From an uncultured Desulfatiglans sp. (GTDB lineage Bacteria > Desulfobacterota > DSM-4660 > Desulfatiglandales > Desulfatiglandaceae), in assembly GCA_900498135.1 (NCBI GenBank), contig LR026961.1, positions 4,716,203 through 4,780,202 on the forward strand: DNA of 64,000 nucleotides. Direction: 5' to 3'. Numbering within the stretch: position 1 is the first letter of the stretch; every line of letters starts with the position of its first letter. The position numbers and the translations under genes were made by a program. This document shows positions 33,439-55,261 of the stretch, piece by piece. Below the pieces are notes generated by a model. The model saw only the letters and a program-made list of their open reading frames with translations, did no database searches and was not told the origin of the DNA.

Positions 33439-35442
33439 TTAGAACAGGCCGGAGACCTTGCCGGTCTTCGTATCGACGTCGATGCGGCGGAAGGCCGGGT
33501 TCGAACCCGTGCCGGGCATCAGGCTGATGGTGCCGGCGCAGGGGCAGAGGAACTTGGCGCCCGAGTAAATGAGGACGTCGCGGATCGGGAGGCTCCACCC
33601 CTTCGGCACACCCTTGACCGTCGGATCGTGGCTCAGGCTCAAGTGGGTCTTGACCATCATGGTTGCGTAGTCGGCATAATTGTGGTCAAGACCCACTTGA
33701 GCCTCTCTCATGATCCAGCCCTTGGGCACACCCTTTAGTGTTGGTTCATGAGAGAGGCTCAAGTGGGTCTTGACCATCATGGTTGCGTAGTCGGCATAAT
33801 TGTGGTCAAGACCCACTTGAGCCTCTCTCATGATCCAGCCCTTGGGCACACCCTTTAGTGTTGGTTCATGAGAGAGGCTCAAGTGGGTCTTGACCATCAT
33901 GGTGGCGAAATCCGCATACTTCGGATCGCTTTCGAGCATCTTGGCCTTGGCTTCGGCCTCGGGGGCCCAGGCGACGCCGTCGGCACCGTAGACTTCCCTG
34001 GCGATCAGGTTGACGCGGTCGCGCAGTTTCATCTCGGTCGGATACAGGAACTTGAACTCGTTCTCTTCGTTGCAGGCGTCGATGACGGCATCGGCAAACT
34101 CCAGTGCGCCTTCGCCGCCCTTTTCCCAGTGCTTGGACTCGGCGCAGCGGGCGCCGGCCGCCTCGGCCGCCTTGCGGACCAGGGCGCACTCAGCGTCCGT
34201 ATCCGTGTAGAAGCGGTTGATGCAGACGACCGGATTGATGCCGGACTTCCGGATCACGCCGATCATGTGGATCATATTCTCGCAGCCCTTCTCGACCAGT
34301 TCCAGGTTCTCCTTGGTGTACTCTTCGGGCAGAGCGATGCCGGGGACGACCTTGGGACCGCCGCCGTGCATCTTGAGCGCACGGATGGTGGTGGTCAGAA
34401 CCGACACGTGCGGCTTCAGGCCGCTGAAACGGCACTTGACGTTCCAGAATTTCTCGAATCCGATATCGGCCGCGAACCCGCTCTCCGTCACATGGTAATC
34501 GAAGAGCTTGAGGCCGACGCGGTCGGCGATGATGGAGGACTGCCCGACAGCGATGTTGGCGAAGGGGCCGGCATGCACCATGCAGGGGTTGTACTCGGCG
34601 GTGCACATCAGGGTCGGGTTGATGGTGTTGCGCATGAAGGCCGTCATGGCATTGCCGACCTCGAGGTCGCCGGTGGTCACCGGTTTGCCGCTCTTGTCGA
34701 AGGCCACGGTGATGTTGTTCAAACGCTCTTTCAGGTCGGCCAGGTCGCGGATGACGGCCAGGATCGCCATACACTCGGAGCCGACGGCGATGCCGAACTT
34801 CGACTGCATGGTATAACCGTCCTGACGCCCGCCAAGGCCGATCACGATGTTCCTGAGCGACTGGGCGCAGAAGTCCATGATCCAGCCCATTTCGACGCGG
34901 GTGGGGTCGATTTCCAGACGGCGCATCCCGGTCAAGCGCTTCAACTGTTCGTCATTGTAGTTCCGCTCGTGCTGCATACGGGCGGTCATGGCCACCATCG
35001 CGAGGTTGTGGGCGTTCATGATGTCGTTGATGTCGCCCGTCAAACCCAGCGAAAACTCGGTCATCGGGATCAGGAGGGAATTGCCGCCGCCTGCCGCCGT
35101 GCCTTTGACGTTCATGGTGGGGCCGCCGGAGGGCTGCCTGAGGGCGCCGCCGACACTCACACCCCTCTTGCCGAGGCCTTCCATCAACCCGCACGAGGTG
35201 GTGCTCTTGCCTTCACCCAGCGGCGTCGGGGTGATGGCCGTCACTTCGATGTACTTCCCATCGGGCTTGTCCTTCAACCTGTCGATGATCTTCAGGAAGT
35301 CCAGTTTGGCAAGCCTCCCCATCGGAAGCATCTCTTCCTTCTGCAAGCCCAGTTTTTCCTGCCACTCCTCGGGAGTCGGCATGTTCTTTTCCGCGGCTTC
35401 GGAAATCTGCCAGTCAGCCATGTTTACCGCATCATAAGCCAT
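33439..35442 (-). CDS. fhs: Formate-tetrahydrofolate ligase with an 80-residue internal repeat insertion
   Basis: The enzyme joins formate to tetrahydrofolate with ATP, a step of the Wood-Ljungdahl pathway or of one-carbon supply. Family blocks are clear: [13 protein letters not shown] (ATP site), [30 protein letters not shown], and the end [18 protein letters not shown] at 35442 (AAGGAGG ten bases upstream) gives 667 residues, about 80 more than usual. The excess is near residues 515-600: the block [11 protein letters not shown]...KGVPKGW occurs three times, separated by [12 protein letters not shown], which is the reverse-strand translation of [10 protein letters not shown]. The insert is in frame. 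Whether the enzyme is active, or this is an assembly artefact, is open. Confidence 0.9.
33635..33903. repeat. 120-bp tandem duplication with embedded inverted repeat inside fhs
   Basis: 33661-33780 is identical to 33781-33900; the match with period 120 extends from 33635 to 33903 (2.2 copies). Each unit contains two 30-base arms that are exact reverse complements (for example 33683-33712 and 33747-33776). So part of fhs was copied in inverted orientation and the product then duplicated in tandem. Confidence 0.95.
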
Positions 35443-36173
35443 CTTTTGCAATCCTCCTTCTCACGTTAATGTTCCTAGTCCTTCAAAAACCCAACTCTTG
35501 TCCATTCACACGACCGCCGGTCGGATCTTCGCGGCCCCGCCCCGGTAATCCCCCCTCGGAGCCGCCAAACCGGCGCCACTCAAGGACTCCGGATCTCCAG
35601 GACATCTTGTCCGCACCGTCGTCTTACACACAACTACCCGGTTTCAAACGAAAAACCAGTCTTTCAAGCCCGCCTCTGCGTCGATCCGTAAGGCGACTGA
35701 CACAACCGGCGGGTCTTTTCCGCACCATGTCTCGTTTCCAGGATCTCAGCCGAAGCGGAACCCGGCCCAGAGGGATAAAGGCGAGCGCGCGAAACCGGGA
35801 AGCGGCACCCTGCTGCCGGATTGCAAACTTCCCAGAACCTGATAGGCATCTCCGGCAGGATTCTGCTTAAAGGTCTTGGTATTTAAGCAGGACTCTGCCT
35901 ATCACAAAAAAATAACAGGGTCAAGCGTAATCATGTTCATTATTTCACGAGCAACGCGTCGATTTTCGGTTTGCCCATCCACTCCGCAAAGTGGTATGTC
36001 TGAAGCGGTCTGTCGTCCAGGGAAACCCGTCCGGCGACGAGCTCAGGCCCGCTGCCGGGTCTTGGCCGGCGGAGCCTGCAGGAACCTTATAGTATCCTTC
36101 ATACCTGTCCATCCAGCATAGGCAGGTTTCGCCATGAGCCGTGGAAGCGGCTCATTCCTCGGAGGAACAACGA
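35443..36173. other. Intergenic region upstream of fhs and proC
   Basis: About 730 bases between two divergent genes. It must contain both promoters. An imperfect inverted repeat (CTGCTTAAA near 35862, TTTAAGCAG near 35881) lies near its middle, with an AT-rich patch around 35905-35950. No coding sequence with a family signature was found. Confidence 0.4.
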
Positions 36174-40460: not shown

Positions 40461-43400
40461 CTAACCGGCGGGACACCTTTCGGCCATGGCCTCCCGGATC
40501 CGCTCCTCGAACAAGACCGTGCCCATTTTCGACGCCAGTTCCAGGGCCTCTCGAAGCGATTTCGCAGCGGCCTTACGGCGCGACCCGCAAAGCAGCGTCC
40601 CCCTCACCAGAAGCGCCCGGGCCTGATGGCGCCGCGCCCCGGTTTTTTTGGCCATGCGGAGCGCCTGAGCGACATACCCGGCAGCCTCTTTATGCTCACC
40701 AAGCCTTCCGTAAAGCTCGCCAAGGGCAATCAGGAGCCGCGTCTTGTAGCGCCAGCGCGTATAAGAGATACCCGGCTTGCGAAGTTCACTCCAGACCTCG
40801 TCCAGAATCTCCCGGGCAGCGCCGAGATCGCCCATCTGCAGAAAATTCTCTCCCATGTTGATCCGGGCGTTGTAAATTGTCTCTGGGTCGCCTGTCACCA
40901 GGGCATCCTTCCAAGCCTCGGTGTTCAGATCCAAGGCCTCTTTCAATTCACCCCCCTCTGCATGGACCCAGCCGAGGGTGTTCATGAACCGCGGCCTCCA
41001 GAAGCGGCCGTCGCCCTCCTCCAGGCTTTTTAACCCCGAGAGCAGAGAATTCCTGCTCTTGTCCAGATTCCCCAAAGCTCCATGGATCAATCCGCTCCGA
41101 AAAAGAGACAGGATTCTGAAATAGGGGCTCTTGATCTTTTCGTTGAAGGCTGCCAGGGATTCGTTCAATTCGAGCGCCGCCTGGTAGTCGCCGGTCCAGT
41201 TGTAATACTGCACGAGGTGGGCTGCAGCCCAGGCCCGGGACTCTAGATCCTGCTCCCGCTCACTGTCTTCGAGCGCCTTCAGCAGCAGCGGACGCGCCTT
41301 TTCGAGTCTGCCCAGAACCGCATAGACAAACCCCAGGAAACTTCGAGCCTTTAAAACCAGGAGGGGCCATCCGCCCTCCCGGCCCGCCTCGATGGTCGCG
41401 AGCAGAAACCTCTCGGCCGAACGTGGACGGTGGAGATAAAAGGAAATCCAGCCCAGCCGGAAAAGGGCTGTCGTCTCCAAGAAACGGTCACCGGTCCGCT
41501 GAGCTTCATTGCGCATCCTCTCGAAGGCGCCGCGGGCCTCTTCCATCTGCCCTACGCAATAATGCATCCGGCCTTTCCAATGGAAGATCTCGGCGATCTT
41601 GACCGGCGGGGTTTCGAAGCGGGCCCGCCTCAGGATGTCGAGGGAACGTTCGAGCGAGGCGAGCGCTTCATGGCAGGCGTAAGAATAACGCGCCTGCCTT
41701 CCGGCCTTGAGGGTGTAAGTGAGCGCTTTGTCCCAGACACCGGCATAATGGAAGTGATAGGCCATCTTCGCTATCCGGCCGGCAGGGTCCTGTGTAGGCA
41801 TGTTCTCCAGGGCTTCGCCCGCCAGACGGTGCAGATGGACCCGCTCCCGACGCATAAGGGTATGGTAGGCCACCTCCCACATCATCGGATGAACGAAACG
41901 GAATGCAGCACCACCACGACCTTCCCCTTTGACCAACCGTTCGAAAATGCCCTCCCTTTCCAGATCCTCGAGCCGGCCATCCAGCTCGGCCCCATCCTGT
42001 CCCAACACCTCGAGCATGCGCCTGGAAAAGTCGTGTCCGAGAACGGAGGCGACCTGGACGGTCCACTTCAAACCGCCTGCCAGTGCATCGAGCCGCGCCG
42101 CAAGGACGCCATGGACATTGTCCGGGATATCGATCGAATCGACCGGCAGCTTCAGGACACAGCGGTCGGGGCCGCAGACCATGAGATCACGCCGCAGCAG
42201 CGTGCGACCCATCTCGACCACGAACAATGGATTGCCGCCGGCCTTGGAAACCAGGTCGCGCGTGAGACGCTCTTCAAGGAGCCGGGTCTTGAGGACTGAA
42301 ACCAACAGATCCTCGGCGTCGCGATCCGACAGCGGCCTCAGATGGAGGGAATGCCTGACAAGCGTTGTCATCCAAGGAAACGGGGTGGAACGCCCCGTGC
42401 AGATCACCAGGATCGGCGAACGAGAGCGGGACTCCAGAAGAAATGTCAGAAATTCGCGAGTGGTACCATCGACCCACTGCATGTTGTCGATGTATAAAAT
42501 CAGGGGTCTCAGGGCGGCAACAGCTTCGAAAACAGCCTGTATCTCTCTGAAAAGAATTCTTTTCCTCCCAGCAAGGGCGGTCTCGGATTCGCCCTCCACC
42601 CTTTGAATCATCCGGAAGCGGGCCAGCACTTCGCGCAGCCTCCGTCTTACCGCCTCATCCATCACCCGCAAATCCACCAAGGCGTCCAACTCCCCCTCAG
42701 ACTCCTGTCCAGAGAGCTTGAAATAAGTCCTGAAGGCGGACAGCAGCGGGTGAAACGCGGCAGTTTCTCCGTAGGGACGGCACACGCCCCTCAAGACCAT
42801 TATGCCTTCTGCCTCCCTCGCACGGCAAAAAGCCCCAACGAAACGTGACTTGCCGACCCCGGCCTCGCCGGTCACGAGGATCAGGTGCGGGCCTTTCTTA
42901 CACGCCTCGGCAAAGGAAGATTCCAGAACCTCCATCTCTCTCTTACGATCCAGAAAGGGGGGAGTGTCTTTCCCCACCGAAGCACCCTGGGTTTCCTCCA
43001 GTTCATCCAGGAGTTGAAAGACATGAACGTCCTCAGCCTTGCCCTTAACCGGCAAGGGCCCCATATCCAGAAAGCGGAAATAGGGCTGGACACTCTCCCA
43101 GACTCGCTCCGATACGAGGATCCCTCCCGGCGGCGCCAGAGACTGCAGCCGTGCCGCCAGATTCGTGGTGTCTCCGAGGGCGGTGTAGTCCAGTCGCAGA
43201 TGGTCGCCGATGGCCGCCACCACTACCAGGCCCGTATGAATGCCAATGCGCATCCTGAAGAGGACCCCGTGGCGATCCTCGACATCCCGCCCATATAACT
43301 CCAGCGCACGCTGGATTTCGATCGCCGCCCGACACGCCTGCCGGCTGTGATCCTCATAGGCGACCGGCGCGCCGAACAGGGCCATGACGCCGTCGCCCGT

Positions 43401-43811
43401 ATACTGATTGATGGTGCCTCCTGCCCCATGGATGGCCTTTCCCAGGATCTCGAAGCACCCATCCATGATCTGATGGACATCCTCAGGATCGAGCTGTTCC
43501 GAGATGCCGGTGAAATTCGCCACGTCAGCGAAGAGAACGGAGACCCGCTTTCTCTCCCCCTCCTTCAGATAGTGTCCCCTGAGGATCTTTTCCATAAGAA
43601 AGGGAGGGGTGTAGCCGGACGTCTGTCCGTCTGCATCGCGGCTGTTCGATGCAGGCGAGCCCAGCGGCGCCCCGCACCTTCCACAGTAGGCGAATCCCCC
43701 CGGCACTTCTGCCCCGCATCGCTCGCAGCGGCGCGGAAGCGCCTTCCCGCAGCGGGTGCAGAACCGCACGTCGTCGGCATTTTCAAATTGACACTCCGGG
43801 CACTTTATCAT
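40461..43811 (-). CDS. Class III nucleotidyl cyclase with zinc ribbons, AAA ATPase and TPR domains
   Basis: A 1116-residue cytoplasmic regulator. Two zinc ribbons occupy 1-50 (CPEC/CTRC and CERC/CGRC). The cyclase domain (about 85-270) has RVSVLFADVANFTGISE and NQYTGDGVMALFGAP for metal binding and DYTALGDTTNLAARLQ. An AAA/STAND-type ATPase follows: VTGEAGVGKSRFVGAF (P-loop near residue 315) and PLILYIDNMQWVDG. The last 450 residues are TPR-like helical repeats. Such proteins link a sensed signal to cAMP; the signal is unknown. The ATPase family resembles MalT-type regulators but there is no DNA-binding domain. No cyclase-effector gene is adjacent. Confidence 0.9.
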   Translation of the reverse strand: MIKCPECQFENADDVRFCTRCGKALPRRCERCGAEVPGGFAYCGRCGAPLGSPASNSRDADGQTSGYTPPFLMEKILRGHYLKEGERKRVSVLFADVANFTGISEQLDPEDVHQIMDGCFEILGKAIHGAGGTINQYTGDGVMALFGAPVAYEDHSRQACRAAIEIQRALELYGRDVEDRHGVLFRMRIGIHTGLVVVAAIGDHLRLDYTALGDTTNLAARLQSLAPPGGILVSERVWESVQPYFRFLDMGPLPVKGKAEDVHVFQLLDELEETQGASVGKDTPPFLDRKREMEVLESSFAEACKKGPHLILVTGEAGVGKSRFVGAFCRAREAEGIMVLRGVCRPYGETAAFHPLLSAFRTYFKLSGQESEGELDALVDLRVMDEAVRRRLREVLARFRMIQRVEGESETALAGRKRILFREIQAVFEAVAALRPLILYIDNMQWVDGTTREFLTFLLESRSRSPILVICTGRSTPFPWMTTLVRHSLHLRPLSDRDAEDLLVSVLKTRLLEERLTRDLVSKAGGNPLFVVEMGRTLLRRDLMVCGPDRCVLKLPVDSIDIPDNVHGVLAARLDALAGGLKWTVQVASVLGHDFSRRMLEVLGQDGAELDGRLEDLEREGIFERLVKGEGRGGAAFRFVHPMMWEVAYHTLMRRERVHLHRLAGEALENMPTQDPAGRIAKMAYHFHYAGVWDKALTYTLKAGRQARYSYACHEALASLERSLDILRRARFETPPVKIAEIFHWKGRMHYCVGQMEEARGAFERMRNEAQRTGDRFLETTALFRLGWISFYLHRPRSAERFLLATIEAGREGGWPLLVLKARSFLGFVYAVLGRLEKARPLLLKALEDSEREQDLESRAWAAAHLVQYYNWTGDYQAALELNESLAAFNEKIKSPYFRILSLFRSGLIHGALGNLDKSRNSLLSGLKSLEEGDGRFWRPRFMNTLGWVHAEGGELKEALDLNTEAWKDALVTGDPETIYNARINMGENFLQMGDLGAAREILDEVWSELRKPGISYTRWRYKTRLLIALGELYGRLGEHKEAAGYVAQALRMAKKTGARRHQARALLVRGTLLCGSRRKAAAKSLREALELASKMGTVLFEERIREAMAERCPAG

Positions 43812-47513: not shown

Positions 47514-47900
47514 TTAAAGCGAGATGACGGTGGCCCCGGTGGCCAACTCAAAAAGGAGCGTAGCAGGAGCCATGCTCACCCCCTCCAGCAGATCTTCGGC
47601 CGATATCTGCCTGGACTGGGCGCAGGGCGCGCACGCATAAATGGGCACCTCGAAATCCTGCAGATAGGCGACGATATCGTCGGCTACATCGCCCGTAGGC
47701 GCCCGCAGATGATCCATGATGCCCTTTCTGGCAAGGTAGACCGCCTCATCCATGAGGAATACCGAGACCTGCTTCCCCATCTTGTGGGCCACCTGGGCCA
47801 GGTGCAACGCCCGCACAGAGCGATTTGGGTTATTTGTTCCGCACGCCAGGGTAATCAGGACCCGGTCCGCCTTGCCTTCACCAATCGTCTCTTTACCCAT
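47514..47900 (-). CDS. DsrE-family protein
   Basis: A 128-residue protein with the DsrE/DsrF fold pattern: ADRVLITLACGTNNPNRSVRAL, HKMGKQVSVFLMDEAVYLARKG, and a cysteine segment YACAPCAQSRQIS where the CxxC-like Cys pair sits at the site used by this family for sulfur relay. ATG at 47900 has GAGGAATTCT upstream. DsrE-like proteins carry persulfide or bind sulfur intermediates; this one is a single-gene copy, not part of dsrEFH. Its cysteine codons are ordinary TGC, so it is not a further Sec gene. Confidence 0.82.
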   Translation of the reverse strand: MGKETIGEGKADRVLITLACGTNNPNRSVRALHLAQVAHKMGKQVSVFLMDEAVYLARKGIMDHLRAPTGDVADDIVAYLQDFEVPIYACAPCAQSRQISAEDLLEGVSMAPATLLFELATGATVISL

Positions 47901-48024
47901 AGAATTCCTCTCTCGATCTGTCTCCAAATTGAGCACTCCCCGTAAAGGCCCCGTTCAGACGTTCCTACGTTCATCCTCCATCATCAGTGAAGAAATCTCT
48001 TAAATGCAGGTTCATGGGAGATTC

Positions 48025-48847: not shown

Positions 48848-49795
48848 CTAAAAAGGAATGATGATACGGAAGACAACCTTTTCGCCTTCCGGGCGATTTT
48901 CTACTTCGCTTTCAAAGTAGGTCTTCAGGCTGAAGATCATCCCTTTGTGAATGTAATGCAATGCAGGCCCAATGGCAAAAACTTCCTCTTCCGAGTTCTG
49001 GAGTTTAACCCCGTCAACTTCATCTTCACTCAATTGTTGACCGTAATAACCTACAACGCCAAACCGAAGATTGGGGTTAATAAAATCAAGCGTTTTCATC
49101 AGTGAGTAGTTGAAATGCCACAGTTCCCCTGCTTCCAAATCATGATCGTTGAAATCACCCGTTACACCCGGATTCACGTACTCATCGTTCTTGCTATTGA
49201 ATGTCAAGTGCTGCCGCGTACTAAACGTAAACCCATAAGGCATTTGAAGCGTCATTGTAACCCACGGTTCAAAGGTCCAGAAGTTCGCGCTGGGATTGAT
49301 CGCCTTGTTCTTATCATACGCACCGACCGGGAAGTAAACATCAAATTCGAAAAACCAATGAAAAACCAAATCCTTTGCCAGCGGAATCGCACTGCCTATA
49401 AATGGACCCATACACGGATCGCCTAAGATGCCGCCTCCCGAATCGAGGCCCAAATCGGAATTGACATCGAAACCGAACATGGGCCAAAGCGCCTGCGCCC
49501 CCCACCTGAGCCCATGCGGCAGTTCCTTCTTCGAAACCCAGATAAACTGCGGGGCGTAGACAACCAGATCCAGCTCATTATTCATCGGAAAGCTTTCACC
49601 ATTGCCGTCCTTGAACTCGTCTGCGCTGTAAAAAACCATATAGTTGCTCATATAAAGCCCCGGCGGTGGAAGCATTGCATCGATGATATTGGTGTTACCG
49701 TAGTTCAGATTCGGGTTCTGATTGTAAGCCACGGCAGCCGAGGAAAACATAAAGGAAAATATGCAACCCAGCAACAATGCAGTCCTTCTTGACAT
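48848..49795 (-). CDS. Outer membrane protein of the MetA phenol-degradation family
   Basis: A 315-residue protein with a 22-residue signal (LLLGCIFSFMFSSAAVAY). The mature part carries the SphA/MetA pattern: PPPGLYMSNYMVFYSADEFKD at the start, barrel strands such as VFHWFFEFDVYFPVGAYDK and RFGVVGYYGQQLSEDEVDG, and EGEKVVFRIIIPF at the end with terminal Phe. Members form outer membrane channels for hydrophobic or aromatic compounds. It is the last gene of a run after the octaheme cytochrome and the binding protein, so it may admit their substrate. Confidence 0.82.
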   Translation of the reverse strand: MSRRTALLLGCIFSFMFSSAAVAYNQNPNLNYGNTNIIDAMLPPPGLYMSNYMVFYSADEFKDGNGESFPMNNELDLVVYAPQFIWVSKKELPHGLRWGAQALWPMFGFDVNSDLGLDSGGGILGDPCMGPFIGSAIPLAKDLVFHWFFEFDVYFPVGAYDKNKAINPSANFWTFEPWVTMTLQMPYGFTFSTRQHLTFNSKNDEYVNPGVTGDFNDHDLEAGELWHFNYSLMKTLDFINPNLRFGVVGYYGQQLSEDEVDGVKLQNSEEEVFAIGPALHYIHKGMIFSLKTYFESEVENRPEGEKVVFRIIIPF

Positions 49796-49917: not shown

Positions 49918-51606
49918 TTATTTTTCCGTCTTCGCAGGTCTCACCATCAAGAAAGACCAGAGGTTGCCGACTCCACCCGGCTGAGGCACCCATCCCGTCA
50001 ACCGGTCAATCCGTACTGCATCGATCTTCTTCTTGGAATAAAGCGGGATATACGGCAATTCCTTTGCGATCAGCCGCTGCATCCCGACCACGTGTTCTTT
50101 CCTTTTCAACGGATCGACTTCCCTTTGCGCCGATTCCGCCAGGCGATCGAATTCGGCGTTCTTGAAGCCCGGGTAGTTCTTACCCCCCAGCCGGGCCTCG
50201 CGGCTGTGGAAGAAGGTATTCAGATAGGCCGGCTCGTCGGAGAGGTTGGTCCACCCCATCAGGTAGACGTCGAATTCACCGGCGGAAAGGGCCTTCAAGA
50301 GATCCTGCAGTGCCAGCATCCGGATTGTGACCTGAACTCCCAGCCGGGCCAGCCATTTCTTCAGCAGCAGAGCCGCCGCGAACCGGTCGGGGCGGCAGCC
50401 CGCCGGAGTCGTCAGCAGTTCCATCGGAGGCATCTTGTCTCCCGTCGGCAGCACCAGCGAATTCTTCTCCCAGGTATAACCCGCCTTCCGAAGCGATTCC
50501 CTGGCCGCATCCAGCCGTGCGTCATCATCGGCGAGGCCGTCACCCGGCAGTTGCAGCTGCGCATCGCACCAAAAGGCATTGTGCGGCGGGATGACGCTCC
50601 TTGCAGGCGCGACATCCCCCGCGAACGCTTTGTCGATCATGGCCTCCCGATTGATCAGTGCAGCCACAGCCTGCCGAAAAACACGGTCATGGTATGGGGA
50701 GCGCCGCAGATTGAAACCCAGATAATCATACCCCCTGCGGTCGGTACGGAAGAACTGAAGCCCCGGTTCGTTCTTCAGTTCCTCTACAGATTCTTCGCAG
50801 ACATCCCCGGCATAAAAGTCGATTTCACCATTCTTCAAAGCCGCGAGCGCCTCCCCGACGTTCCGGTAAACATGGAAAACCACCCAGTCGACATAGGGGC
50901 CGACCTGCATCCCCGCAATATCTTCCCCCTGTGCAAAGAAGTGTGGATTGCGCTTCATCAACACGAAATCGTGCGAGGGATCGTTCACGATGCTGAAGGG
51001 ACCGCTGCTCGGCACCCTGTCCGGCTTCAAACCGGTCAAACGCCGGGCGGCATTCTCCGTTCCCTCCAACGGCTGGATCAACGGCGCCCACGCCTTCTTC
51101 TGCAGGAACGGCGTCAAGAGGGTCTCGTTGAAAAAGGCGGCGCTGGGCTCCTTGAGGATAAACCGGATCGTACGCGGATCGAGCGCCTCCACGCGCTCCA
51201 CCATCTGCCAGTGCTCCACGTGACCGGGAACATTGAATCGTCGGATCACCTCCCAGGTATAGAGCAGGTCGTCACTCGAGATCGGGGTGCCGTCATCCCA
51301 GTGCGCCTCCTTGAGCCTGACCGTTACGATGAGGCCTTTTGGATCGGATTCCGGCTTCCGTTCCGCAAGCCAGGGAAGAACCGAGCCGTCGCGGGGGTCT
51401 CTGATATATAGCGGCATGTGGATCAGCCGCAGGACTCTCCTTGACCAGACGTCGGTCGCCCCCAGGAAATTCATGGACTTAGGACCGCTCAGAACACCGA
51501 CGTGCAGGGATTCCCCCTTGGGCGATTCCCCGGCCTCCGCCGGTTTCAATATCCCGGCCCACAACGCGACGACTGCCGTAAGAATCATGCATGTGAGCTT
51601 TTTCAT
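49918..51606 (-). CDS. Extracellular solute-binding protein, family 5 (oligopeptide/nickel type)
   Basis: A 562-residue exported binding protein: signal peptide ending KPAEAG, then LPWLAERKPESDPKGLIVTVRLKE-type block, HWDDGTPISSDDLLYTWEVI, YLGFNLRRSPYHDRVFRQAVAALIN, and the C-terminal LPYIPLYSKKKIDAVR. Family 5 proteins feed ABC importers for peptides, nickel or heme. No permease or ATPase gene is near, so it is an orphan receptor or acts with an unlinked transporter. It starts 45 bases after the octaheme cytochrome stop, on the same strand, suggesting co-transcription. Confidence 0.9.
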   Translation of the reverse strand: MKKLTCMILTAVVALWAGILKPAEAGESPKGESLHVGVLSGPKSMNFLGATDVWSRRVLRLIHMPLYIRDPRDGSVLPWLAERKPESDPKGLIVTVRLKEAHWDDGTPISSDDLLYTWEVIRRFNVPGHVEHWQMVERVEALDPRTIRFILKEPSAAFFNETLLTPFLQKKAWAPLIQPLEGTENAARRLTGLKPDRVPSSGPFSIVNDPSHDFVLMKRNPHFFAQGEDIAGMQVGPYVDWVVFHVYRNVGEALAALKNGEIDFYAGDVCEESVEELKNEPGLQFFRTDRRGYDYLGFNLRRSPYHDRVFRQAVAALINREAMIDKAFAGDVAPARSVIPPHNAFWCDAQLQLPGDGLADDDARLDAARESLRKAGYTWEKNSLVLPTGDKMPPMELLTTPAGCRPDRFAAALLLKKWLARLGVQVTIRMLALQDLLKALSAGEFDVYLMGWTNLSDEPAYLNTFFHSREARLGGKNYPGFKNAEFDRLAESAQREVDPLKRKEHVVGMQRLIAKELPYIPLYSKKKIDAVRIDRLTGWVPQPGGVGNLWSFLMVRPAKTEK

Positions 51607-51651: not shown

Positions 51652-53073
51652 TCATGGACCTTTCCGCTCCTTCGGGCTATCAGAACCGGGGCCGAATCGC
51701 CCGCCCGCAGCAGCGGGATCTTCCGGGTATCCAAGAGCCTCGAAGTCCATCAAAGCCTTTGCACCGTGGCAGTCCATGCATCCCAGCGCCTGCTCCTTGG
51801 GGACCACCCCATGGTTCAAGCGCCAATGCATGACGGTCGTCACGAAGATAGACTTTCCGCTGTAAGGCAGTTCCGCCTCTTTCATCCCCGACCGGATGGC
51901 CCTTTCCCAATCGAAGTGCTCCCAGTACCCCCCCCACAACTTCGGAATGAGCAGGTACTGGAAGGTCGCGTCGGCGGGCTGAACGCCCGTGTGGATCTTG
52001 AAAGGGGTGATCTTCGCCTTGGGATCCTGGATGCCCCCAGCCGGAGGGTTGAGGTACGTCGTTCCGGTCACATCGACCCGCTCCCCCATGCGGTACCGCT
52101 CGTGTCGGCCGTTATACCATGCATAGGCCGGCGCAACGTTCGCCTTCTTGATGAAGAGGCCCTTTTTGCGGTGCTGGGTGGTGATGCAATAGGGCGAGTT
52201 CTCCAGCTCCTTGGTATCCCTTCCTGCAAGGGCCCAGTTCCAGAAAAGCAGCGTCGGCTTGGCCTTCGCAAACTGAGGGATGTGGCAGGTCTCGCAGGCG
52301 ATGGCATCACAGTGATCGTTCAGCGTTTTCTGGACCGCGTGGCGGTCGGTGGCATGAGGCCGTTCATCATGGCAATCCGTACAGGACACCCGCCCCTCGC
52401 TCACGCAGGTGGTCATACTGGCTCCCGCAATACGATGCCCGTTCGTGGTGTGGCAGTCCTGGCAGGCGAAATCCAACCCGCCCATGTGGACATCCAACTC
52501 GCGGGGAGGATCGATGAGAGCCTCGCTCAGGTTGCCGTGCTTGATGGCGTCCCCACCGCCTCCGCAAAAATGACAGGACCCGCAGTTGGCCCGTGTCGGA
52601 CGCCCGACACCGCGGGCGATCTTCACCAGGTCGAGCCCTTTTTTTTCATCGCCGCAGCCCGCCGGTGCCTTTTCGTAAGTTCCAGTGCGGTCGTGGCACA
52701 CCAGGCAATCCACCCTCGATGGATCCTTGAAATCAAACGTGTTGTCCTTCCAACCGTAACCCACATGACAGCTGGTGCAACTGCACCAGTTCGCAATCGG
52801 GGATATTCAAAAGTTGTTGATAACTTTTACCTTTCCCAAGGGCTCTTTCGCCTCGCCCTCGAGGTGTGGGTTGGGGCCCTTCCACTGCCAGTGGGCCGTC
52901 TGCATGACCTCTGACGCAGCCTCCTCGTGGCAGCCGAGGCACGTCCGGGTCACAGAGGGACCGTCCGGGAACGGACCTTCTATGTCCTGATGAGACGAGG
53001 CCTGTGCGCAGACCGCCAAAAGAACACCCGCAACGCCTCCAAAAACCGCGGCCTTGAAAGACAAACTGAACAT
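51652..53073 (-). CDS. Octaheme c-type cytochrome (tetrathionate reductase family) with selenocysteine (Sec89)
   Basis: The frame from ATG 53073 to 51652 gives 473 residues with one in-frame TGA at 52809-52807. Residues 1-25 are a signal peptide. Eight CxxCH motifs are present: CLGCH, CTSCH, CLVCH, CGSCH, CQDCH, CTDCH, CETCH and CMDCH. The joined sequence is KVINNF-Sec-ISPIANWCSCTSCHVGYGWKD; in octaheme tetrathionate reductase relatives this block reads NNFC, so TGA replaces a conserved Cys close to the second heme. Substrates of the family include tetrathionate, nitrite and hydroxylamine; here it is unknown. A perfect hairpin follows TGA, and homology is unbroken on both sides. A divergent PAS/sigma-54 activator lies upstream. 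Confidence 0.88.
52772..52789 (-). promoter_or_regulatory. Candidate bacterial SECIS hairpin in the octaheme cytochrome gene
   Basis: On the minus strand CTGGTGC and GCACCAG form a perfect 7-bp stem with loop AGTT. The loop begins 24 bases after TGA and has a G in its second position, which fits the usual bacterial SECIS geometry. The hairpin also codes for WCSCTS next to heme 2, so coding constraint could explain part of it. Confidence 0.7.
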
Positions 53074-53875: not shown

Positions 53876-55261
53876 ATGAACGGATTGGATCTGAACAGCC
53901 ATTGGAAAACGGTCGTCAGCACCATCCAGGACGGGCTGATGATCGTCGACCGGACGGGAACCATCCGGTTCGTCAACCCTGCCCTAACCAAAATGACCGG
54001 TTATGCACCGAAGGAAATGATCGGCATGCCCTGTTCCTCGCTCAATTGCGATGTCTGCGAGATTGCGCGGGCCCCGGGACGCGGGTCCTGGTGCGTCCTG
54101 TTCCAGGAGGGCGCCATCCCGCCCCACCGCTGCACCCTGCGCAGAAAAGACGGAACGATGGTTCCGGTCCTGAAAAATGCAGCGCTTCTGAGGGATGCAG
54201 AAGGAGCCGTCATCGGGGCGGTCGAGACACTCACGGACCTGACCGAGCTCAAGCGGCGCGATCTGCAGATTCAGTCCTTTACGCGGGAATTGGCGGATCA
54301 GAAAGGTTTTCAGGGGATCCTGGGGGTCTCGGTGCGAATGCAGAAGGTCTTCGATCTCCTGGCAAACGCCGCGAGCTCCGATGCGCCGGTCCTGATCCTC
54401 GGTGAAAGCGGCACGGGGAAGGAACTCGCAGCGAGGGCCATCCACCGCCTGGGGCCGCGGCGTGACAAACCATTCATCAAGGTCAACTGCGCCGCGCTGA
54501 ACGAGGCCCTTCTCGAAAGCGAGCTGTTCGGGCACGTACGAGGCGCCTTCACGGGGGCCTACCGCGACCGGGAAGGCCGCTTCGAAGCCGCCCACGGAGG
54601 CGACATCTTCCTGGACGAGGTCGGCGATTTGTCTTTTTCGACCCAGGTTAAACTCCTGCGCGTCCTCGAGGAGAAAACCATCGAAAAGGTGGGGGATCAA
54701 CGGTCGATCCGAGTCGATGTCCGGATCATTTCGGCCACGAACCGTGAGGTCGCGCAATTGGCTGCGGAAGGCAAAATCCGACAGGATTTTTTTTACCGGA
54801 TCAACGTGATCCCGATCCGCCTGCCTCCCCTTCGCAAGCGCATCGAAGACATCCCGATCCTTGCGGAACACTTTCTCGAGAGGCTGCGGAAAAAAAGCCG
54901 AAAACCGGTCCAGGGGATCAGCAGCACCGCCCTGGAGTGCCTGATGGACTATTCCTGGCCCGGCAACGTGCGCGAATTGAAAAGCGCCTTCGAGTACGCG
55001 TTCATTTCCTGCCACGAAACGCTCATCCAGCCCGAACATCTTCCGTCGGAAATCTCAGCCGGGAAGAAGAAGGCCTCTCCACCCGCCACCCCGAAGCGAG
55101 GCACAAGGAACGATCAGAAGCGGCAACGGCTTCTTGAGGCCCTTCAGGCCGCGGACGGGAACCAGTCCGAGGCCGCACGCATCCTCGGCGTTTCTCGTGT
55201 GACGGTCTGGAACCGGATCAAGAAATACGGGATCGATCTCGAGAAGAAGGTCTCAGGTTAG
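53876..55261 (+). CDS. PAS-domain sigma-54-dependent transcriptional activator with a cysteine cluster
   Basis: A 461-residue regulator. An N-terminal PAS domain (about 10-125) holds five cysteines: Cys53, Cys58, Cys61, Cys73 and Cys86 ([29 protein letters not shown]). The AAA+ domain (about 150-385) has GESGTGKE (176-183), the sigma-54-contacting GAFTGA (223-228) and [10 protein letters not shown]. The C-terminal helix-turn-helix is [25 protein letters not shown]. It senses a signal with PAS directly, without a receiver domain. The cysteines suggest a redox or metal signal. Divergent from the octaheme cytochrome, its likely target. Confidence 0.92.

Follow-up and report, generated by a model that had tools for sequence, protein, structure and literature searches.

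Evidence for selenocysteine at the conserved cysteine position of an octaheme cytochrome of the tetrathionate reductase family

Introduction

The closest described relative of the cytochrome studied here is the octaheme tetrathionate reductase (OTR) of Shewanella, whose structure is available as PDB entry 1SP3. Cys64 of this enzyme is presumably situated near heme 2, and Lys153 is reportedly an unusual ligand of the same heme, an assignment said to go back to Mowat et al. in 2004. The OTR family reduces tetrathionate, nitrite and hydroxylamine in vitro; its main role is unsettled. Heme II is the catalytic heme of OTR, and all three substrates are reduced by the Shewanella enzyme (PMC4484225). 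A form with selenocysteine (Sec) has been tabulated: Table 1 of a 2026 review contains the entry ‘Tetrathionate reductase family octaheme c-type cytochrome’, TIGR04315, with one Sec (WP_331457571.1, annotated in GenBank; PMC13188914). We found neither a structure nor enzymology of a Sec-form OTR in the open literature that we searched.

In this study we analyze a gene in a stretch of 64,000 nucleotides from an uncultured Desulfatiglans sp. (contig LR026961.1; this whole stretch is called the window). A first-pass annotation made from the sequence alone had proposed that the gene encodes an OTR-type cytochrome in which Sec takes the place of a cysteine near heme 2. To follow this up, OTR relatives were gathered; the sources were GTDB contigs and several hundred genomes belonging to the phylum.

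Results

As the first-pass annotation had stated, the frame running from 53073 to 51652 on the reverse strand is interrupted before its terminator by a single TGA, at codon 89, and the protein obtained by reading through it has eight CxxCH motifs (residues 45, 99, 123, 164, 204, 231, 260 and 432). The features of the gene and its surroundings are listed in Table 1. The read-through protein matches TIGR04315 over residues 26-449 with 522.8 bits, where the curated NCBIfam cut-off is 375 bits, and its sole match among the solved structures of the PDB is 1SP3 (E 1.8e-132, 445.7 bits). Residue 26 is the start of both matches. Judged by its sequence, the product is an octaheme c-type cytochrome that is exported to the periplasm and belongs to the OTR family, to which it had been assigned before. 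Residue 89 lies ten residues upstream of the heme-2 CxxCH, in an NNF-Sec block that corresponds, as had been stated, to NNFC of relatives including Shewanella OTR. Lys178 is invariant across the 36 Sec rows and 81 Cys rows of our alignment.

Table 1. Coordinates of the OTR-type gene, its elements and neighbouring genes in the window
Feature	Position	Strand	Remark
OTR-type gene with one internal TGA, 473 residues read through	51652..53073	-	terminal TGA at 51654-51652
Probable export signal peptide, residues 1-26 (MFSLSFKAAVFGGVAGVLLAVCAQAS)	52996..53073	-	read from sequence
TGA codon 89, selenocysteine (near certain)	52807..52809	-	aligned with Cys64 of 1SP3
SECIS hairpin CTGGTGC-AGTT-GCACCAG, perfect 7 bp	52772..52789	-	loop 52782-52779, starting 24 nt after TGA
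Cys97 codon (TGC)	52783..52785	-	within hairpin 5' arm
Heme-2 attachment motif CTSCH, residues 99-103	52765..52779	-	first codons form hairpin 3' arm
Cys140 codon	52654..52656	-	outside hairpin
Lys178 codon	52540..52542	-	aligned with position 153 of 1SP3
Substrate-binding protein, family 5	49918..51606	-	Pfam SBP_bac_5; 45 bp downstream of OTR gene
Outer-membrane protein, MetA-pathway type	48848..49795	-	Pfam Phenol_MetA_deg; possible later operon gene
DsrE-like protein	47514..47936	-	Pfam DsrE; possible later gene of cluster
Divergent PAS/sigma-54-dependent regulator	53876..55261	+	upstream of OTR gene

The TGA is not peculiar to this gene. Exactly one in-frame TGA was found in 36 full-length OTR genes, always in the residue-89 column, and a gene fragment (L026) has its TGA likewise in this column. 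In the set of 121 rows used for the trees the column holds Cys in 81 rows and Thr, Gly, Leu or Ala in four. Aligning relatives at codon 89 and looking for sel genes in the genome had been suggested as checks on the first-pass annotation. The alignment, with TGA in this gene and 35 others and Cys in 81 relatives, makes residue 89 a conserved-Cys column and bears out the claim that Sec stands in place of a conserved Cys near heme 2. The genome carries selA (624.9 bits), selB (386.8 bits), selD (369.4 bits) and selC, the gene of tRNA-Sec (71.7 bits), with the anticodon TCA (ARAGORN, tRNA-SeC (tca)). As a marker separating Sec from Cys genomes selB proved uninformative, because nearly all genomes of the phylum have it. 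The genome's own SelD gene (L074, G000:C1:3059355-3060272) also contains one in-frame TGA, and the selenophosphate synthase of the host is probably itself a selenoprotein. Downstream of the TGA in the OTR-type gene, a comparison of the source species with the other species of its genus, two species in all, gave a pS of 0.186 and a pN of 0.022 (pN/pS 0.12), which shows that this region is constrained as coding sequence.

These data bear on two other explanations of the TGA. It might be a premature stop, due to decay into a pseudogene or to a sequencing error, or it might divide the gene into two proteins. We consider this extremely improbable, as the in-frame stop itself speaks for it and nothing further, whereas 36 genes share the TGA at one conserved-Cys column, purifying selection continues past it and the sel machinery is complete. 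A split into two genes is also unlikely: there is no start codon in the stretch from the TGA to the heme-2 motif, and the ORF that comes first after the TGA begins behind this motif without a signal peptide. Alternatively, the TGA might be read as another amino acid, by an altered code or by near-cognate readthrough. This would be compatible with the sequence taken alone, but the gene's own terminator is a TGA as well, tRNA-Sec (tca), SelA, SelB and SelD are all encoded in the genome, and relatives carry Cys at residue 89, not Trp or Gly; we give it hardly any credence. It is near certain that SelB and tRNA-Sec, acting via a hairpin, insert selenocysteine at UGA 89, and the recoding proposed earlier has held up on three counts: the shared column, the sel genes and the low pN/pS.

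The perfect 7-bp hairpin with the loop AGTT, which had been placed 24 nt past the TGA, is indeed there. It is of the SECIS type, that is, a hairpin just 3' of the TGA with a short loop containing G and U. Its 5' arm extends over Asn95-Trp96-Cys97, and its 3' arm is the start of the heme-2 motif (codons Cys99-Thr-Ser). With small variations, the hairpin CTGGTGC-AG(G/T)T-GCACCAG with its loop at +24 is found in 30 Sec genes. Four other Sec genes (L046, L118, L125 and L130) form another hairpin without mismatches, GCAACGA-GGC-TCGTTGC, whose loop is at +20. In L014 and L017 the hairpin at this place is weaker and has an A.G mismatch (read by eye). In an alignment of 16 distinct stem sequences all cells are paired; there is one compensatory change from C-G to U-A (L081) and two G-U changes, a slight covariation that 29 of 500 shuffles equalled. 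The source gene by itself did not give a significant result, since 9% of its random synonymous recodings yield an equally strong hairpin. With Pro97, the usual residue of the Cys forms, none of 5000 recodings attained the observed hairpin score. Hairpin strength is greater in Sec genes than in Cys genes. Support for the hairpin comes from its recurrence at an unchanged distance from the TGA in 30 Sec genes, from this contrast between Sec and Cys genes, from the alternative hairpins in six further Sec genes (weak in two) and from the Pro97 recodings. Its interpretation as a SECIS is supported. The codon AGG for Arg98 occurs in 28 of 32 Sec genes having Arg there and in 1 of 49 Cys genes, counts that are inflated by kinship.

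Two further cysteines go along with Sec89. Of the 36 Sec forms, 30 have both Cys97 and Cys140 and six have neither; among the 81 Cys forms there is none with either cysteine. The Sec genes with other hairpins are without both cysteines. The pair is spread over two separate Sec clades, namely that of the source gene and a large one within the second subfamily; placing all rows with the pair in a single clade was rejected by the AU test, with a log-likelihood lower by 139. Gene conversion of the N-terminal part as a cause of the pair in two clades was likewise dismissed, since one clade is also rejected by a tree built from residues 35-185 after removal of the trait columns (p-AU 0.011). Independent-pair sign tests did not reach significance, as the changes were too few.

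One reading is that Cys97 and Cys140 might form a disulfide or act jointly with Sec89. Our first idea, that Cys97 at position +8 is a resolving cysteine, was weakened by the finding that its codon is an arm of the SECIS; the exceptionless co-occurrence with Cys140, which lies outside the SECIS, restores it in part. A more modest reading is that Cys97 is a mere by-product of the SECIS, whose TGC must pair with heme-2 codons, and that Cys140 is a compensating disulfide partner without a catalytic role. It would explain why the Cys97 codon lies within the 5' arm, why no recoding with Pro97 reached the hairpin score and why Sec genes having other hairpins lack both cysteines. It does not sit easily with Cys140, which is outside the hairpin and still always accompanies Cys97, in two separate clades, nor with the six Sec genes in which hairpins without Cys97 evidently suffice. 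We regard this by-product reading as quite possible, if somewhat short of probable.

Mapped on the unrooted OTR trees, the Sec label requires at least six changes between Cys and Sec, and a single Sec clade is rejected; gains and losses of Sec cannot be separated because the trees are unrooted. One genome (G214) has two Sec-OTRs (among the genes L081, L125 and L140), which belong to different clades and have different SECIS hairpins, plus one Cys-OTR. In place of the Cys or Sec found elsewhere, the residue-89 column holds Gly in L018, Thr in L019 and Leu in L021, and L018 in addition has Ser (ISHG) at the expected position of the heme-2 lysine. These three sequences suggest that the usual active site may have been lost.

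The gene of the family-5 substrate-binding protein probably belongs to the same operon as the Sec-OTR. Its homologues adjoin the Sec-OTR in two compared loci (L146 and L148); in L147 they are nearby, and in L149 the distance is about 8 kb. A porin-like protein is also encoded farther downstream of the OTR gene. Relatives of the divergent regulator occur near OTR genes in ten compared loci, in both subfamilies and in Sec and Cys types alike. A scan for sigma-70 promoters found nothing, and a search for sigma-54-like patterns found no site near the OTR gene. Of the second-subfamily loci, 11 have a cytochrome b561 gene near the OTR gene, mostly adjacent to it, and in L151 and L152 the OTR part is fused behind an NrfD-like and c3-like region and adjoins an HmcB-like iron-sulfur gene. 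Both contexts suggest that OTR may obtain its electrons from quinol.

Two other genes of the window deserve mention. A formate-tetrahydrofolate ligase-like ORF of 670 aa (33439-35451, reverse strand) contains a repeat at 33635-33918, with 2.4 in-frame copies of a 120-bp unit that are 97% alike. The open frames of its relatives are about 590-640 aa long, and their alignments fall into two pieces that leave out the repeat. The repeat arose either by a recent tandem duplication or as an artefact of the assembly. A zinc-ribbon/adenylate cyclase/AAA/TPR protein of 1116 aa (40461-43811, reverse strand) has homologues close to the Sec-OTR in L146 and L147; we saw no obvious link between this protein and the cytochrome.

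Discussion

The recoding of the TGA is near certain, and from it and the family's known chemistry we infer what Sec89 might do. The explanation that we favour overall, and hold to be somewhat better than an even bet, is that the enzyme reduces S-S bonds with electrons from quinol and that Sec89, beside the lysine-ligated heme 2, serves as its nucleophile. Sec89 substitutes for the conserved Cys of the family (Cys64 of Shewanella OTR), ten residues ahead of the heme-2 CxxCH. Next to heme 2, the selenolate of Sec89 would attack a sulfur substrate at its S-S bond; this substrate would be tetrathionate, polysulfide or another disulfide. The attack would lead to an Se-S intermediate, from which the bound half would be reduced and released, the electrons being relayed through the hemes from quinol (in relatives, by way of cytochrome b561 or NrfD partners). 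Cys97 and Cys140 would, in most Sec-OTRs including the source protein, be a disulfide or resolving pair near Sec89. The nucleophilic role is proposed by analogy, because OTR reduces tetrathionate and TsdA offers a precedent with its cysteine S-thiosulfonate at the catalytic heme (PMC4423706). There are counterpoints to this mechanism. The reduction of nitrite and hydroxylamine by Shewanella OTR needs no nucleophile, and the members with Thr, Gly or Leu (L019, L018 and L021) suggest that a thiol or selenol might be dispensable in some. Furthermore, no quinol dehydrogenase gene is found beside the OTR gene in its own cluster.

It might also be that the physiological substrate is nitrite, hydroxylamine or another small oxidant, and that the role of Sec is to tune heme 2 or to protect the site, and not to be a sulfur nucleophile. 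Shewanella OTR does reduce nitrite and hydroxylamine (PMC4484225), and octaheme cytochromes of one Desulfobacterota species increase during nitrate ammonification (PMC12142623). However, a conserved Cys or Sec together with two more cysteines in most Sec forms would better fit sulfur chemistry, and we consider a small oxidant rather unlikely as the substrate. To our knowledge NrfA-type nitrite reductases have no counterpart of the conserved Cys/Sec either, which also counts against it.

If Sec89 is indeed the nucleophile of an S-S bond reductase, this would be a natural enzyme with selenocysteine working beside a catalytic multiheme c-type site, and a new type of selenium-heme active site is a plausible, though putative, description. 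It is conceivable, with a little less than even chances, that Sec89 beside the lysine-ligated heme 2 makes up a redox triad with Cys97 and Cys140 in two separate OTR clades. Cys97 of such a triad would be doubly constrained, since the same codon also serves as an arm of the SECIS across the heme-attachment codons. The strict association of Sec with Cys97 and Cys140 leads to a specific and testable prediction about the active site, and the overlap of SECIS and heme codons is an example of an RNA element dictating protein residues. As Sec-OTRs are common in the phylum and have been swapped with Cys forms at least six times, Sec/Cys pairs, including the one genome that holds both, can serve as natural experiments on the contribution of selenium.

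How does the locus compare with known systems? TsdA and SoxA, with a cysteine S-thiosulfonate at the catalytic heme and tetrathionate or thiosulfate as substrates (PMC4423706), are alike as a possible mechanism only; they form a separate diheme family in which the Cys itself is a heme ligand, and we claim no homology. A Cys-OTR paralogue of the same genome (L078, L161; G000:C1:651317-652657) is of the same family, 45% identical and has Cys at the residue-89 position, but it belongs to the other subfamily, lacks Cys97 and Cys140 and adjoins a cytochrome b561 gene. Shewanella OTR (1SP3, TIGR04315) shares full-length homology, eight CxxCH motifs, the NNF[C/U] block and the invariant lysine of the GGD..KHG block. 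It differs from the source protein by Cys64 in place of Sec89, Pro72 in place of Cys97 and Ala115 in place of Cys140, and in its gene neighbours. WP_331457571.1 has the NCBIfam model and the one Sec in common with our protein and is, by description, very probably the same kind of protein (PMC13188914). This entry rules out an unlisted selenoprotein family; as the family is already tabulated, what the locus adds is one more member of a listed, uncharacterized family. The first-pass annotation had known of no described Sec octaheme cytochrome, which does not stand as far as the listing goes and does stand for characterization, since the listing is without Sec motif, position, SECIS, distribution or function. 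Overall its observations are confirmed and its interpretation is partly supported. In the open literature searched, which takes in few of the subscription papers, neither the Sec position nor the overlap of SECIS and heme codons was found described, and the same is true of the repeated exchange between Cys and Sec and of the pair Cys97/Cys140. Compared with what is listed, new here are at least six changes between Cys and Sec, a SECIS that runs through the heme-2 CxxCH codons, and a pair of cysteines, Cys97 and Cys140, that occurs only together with Sec.
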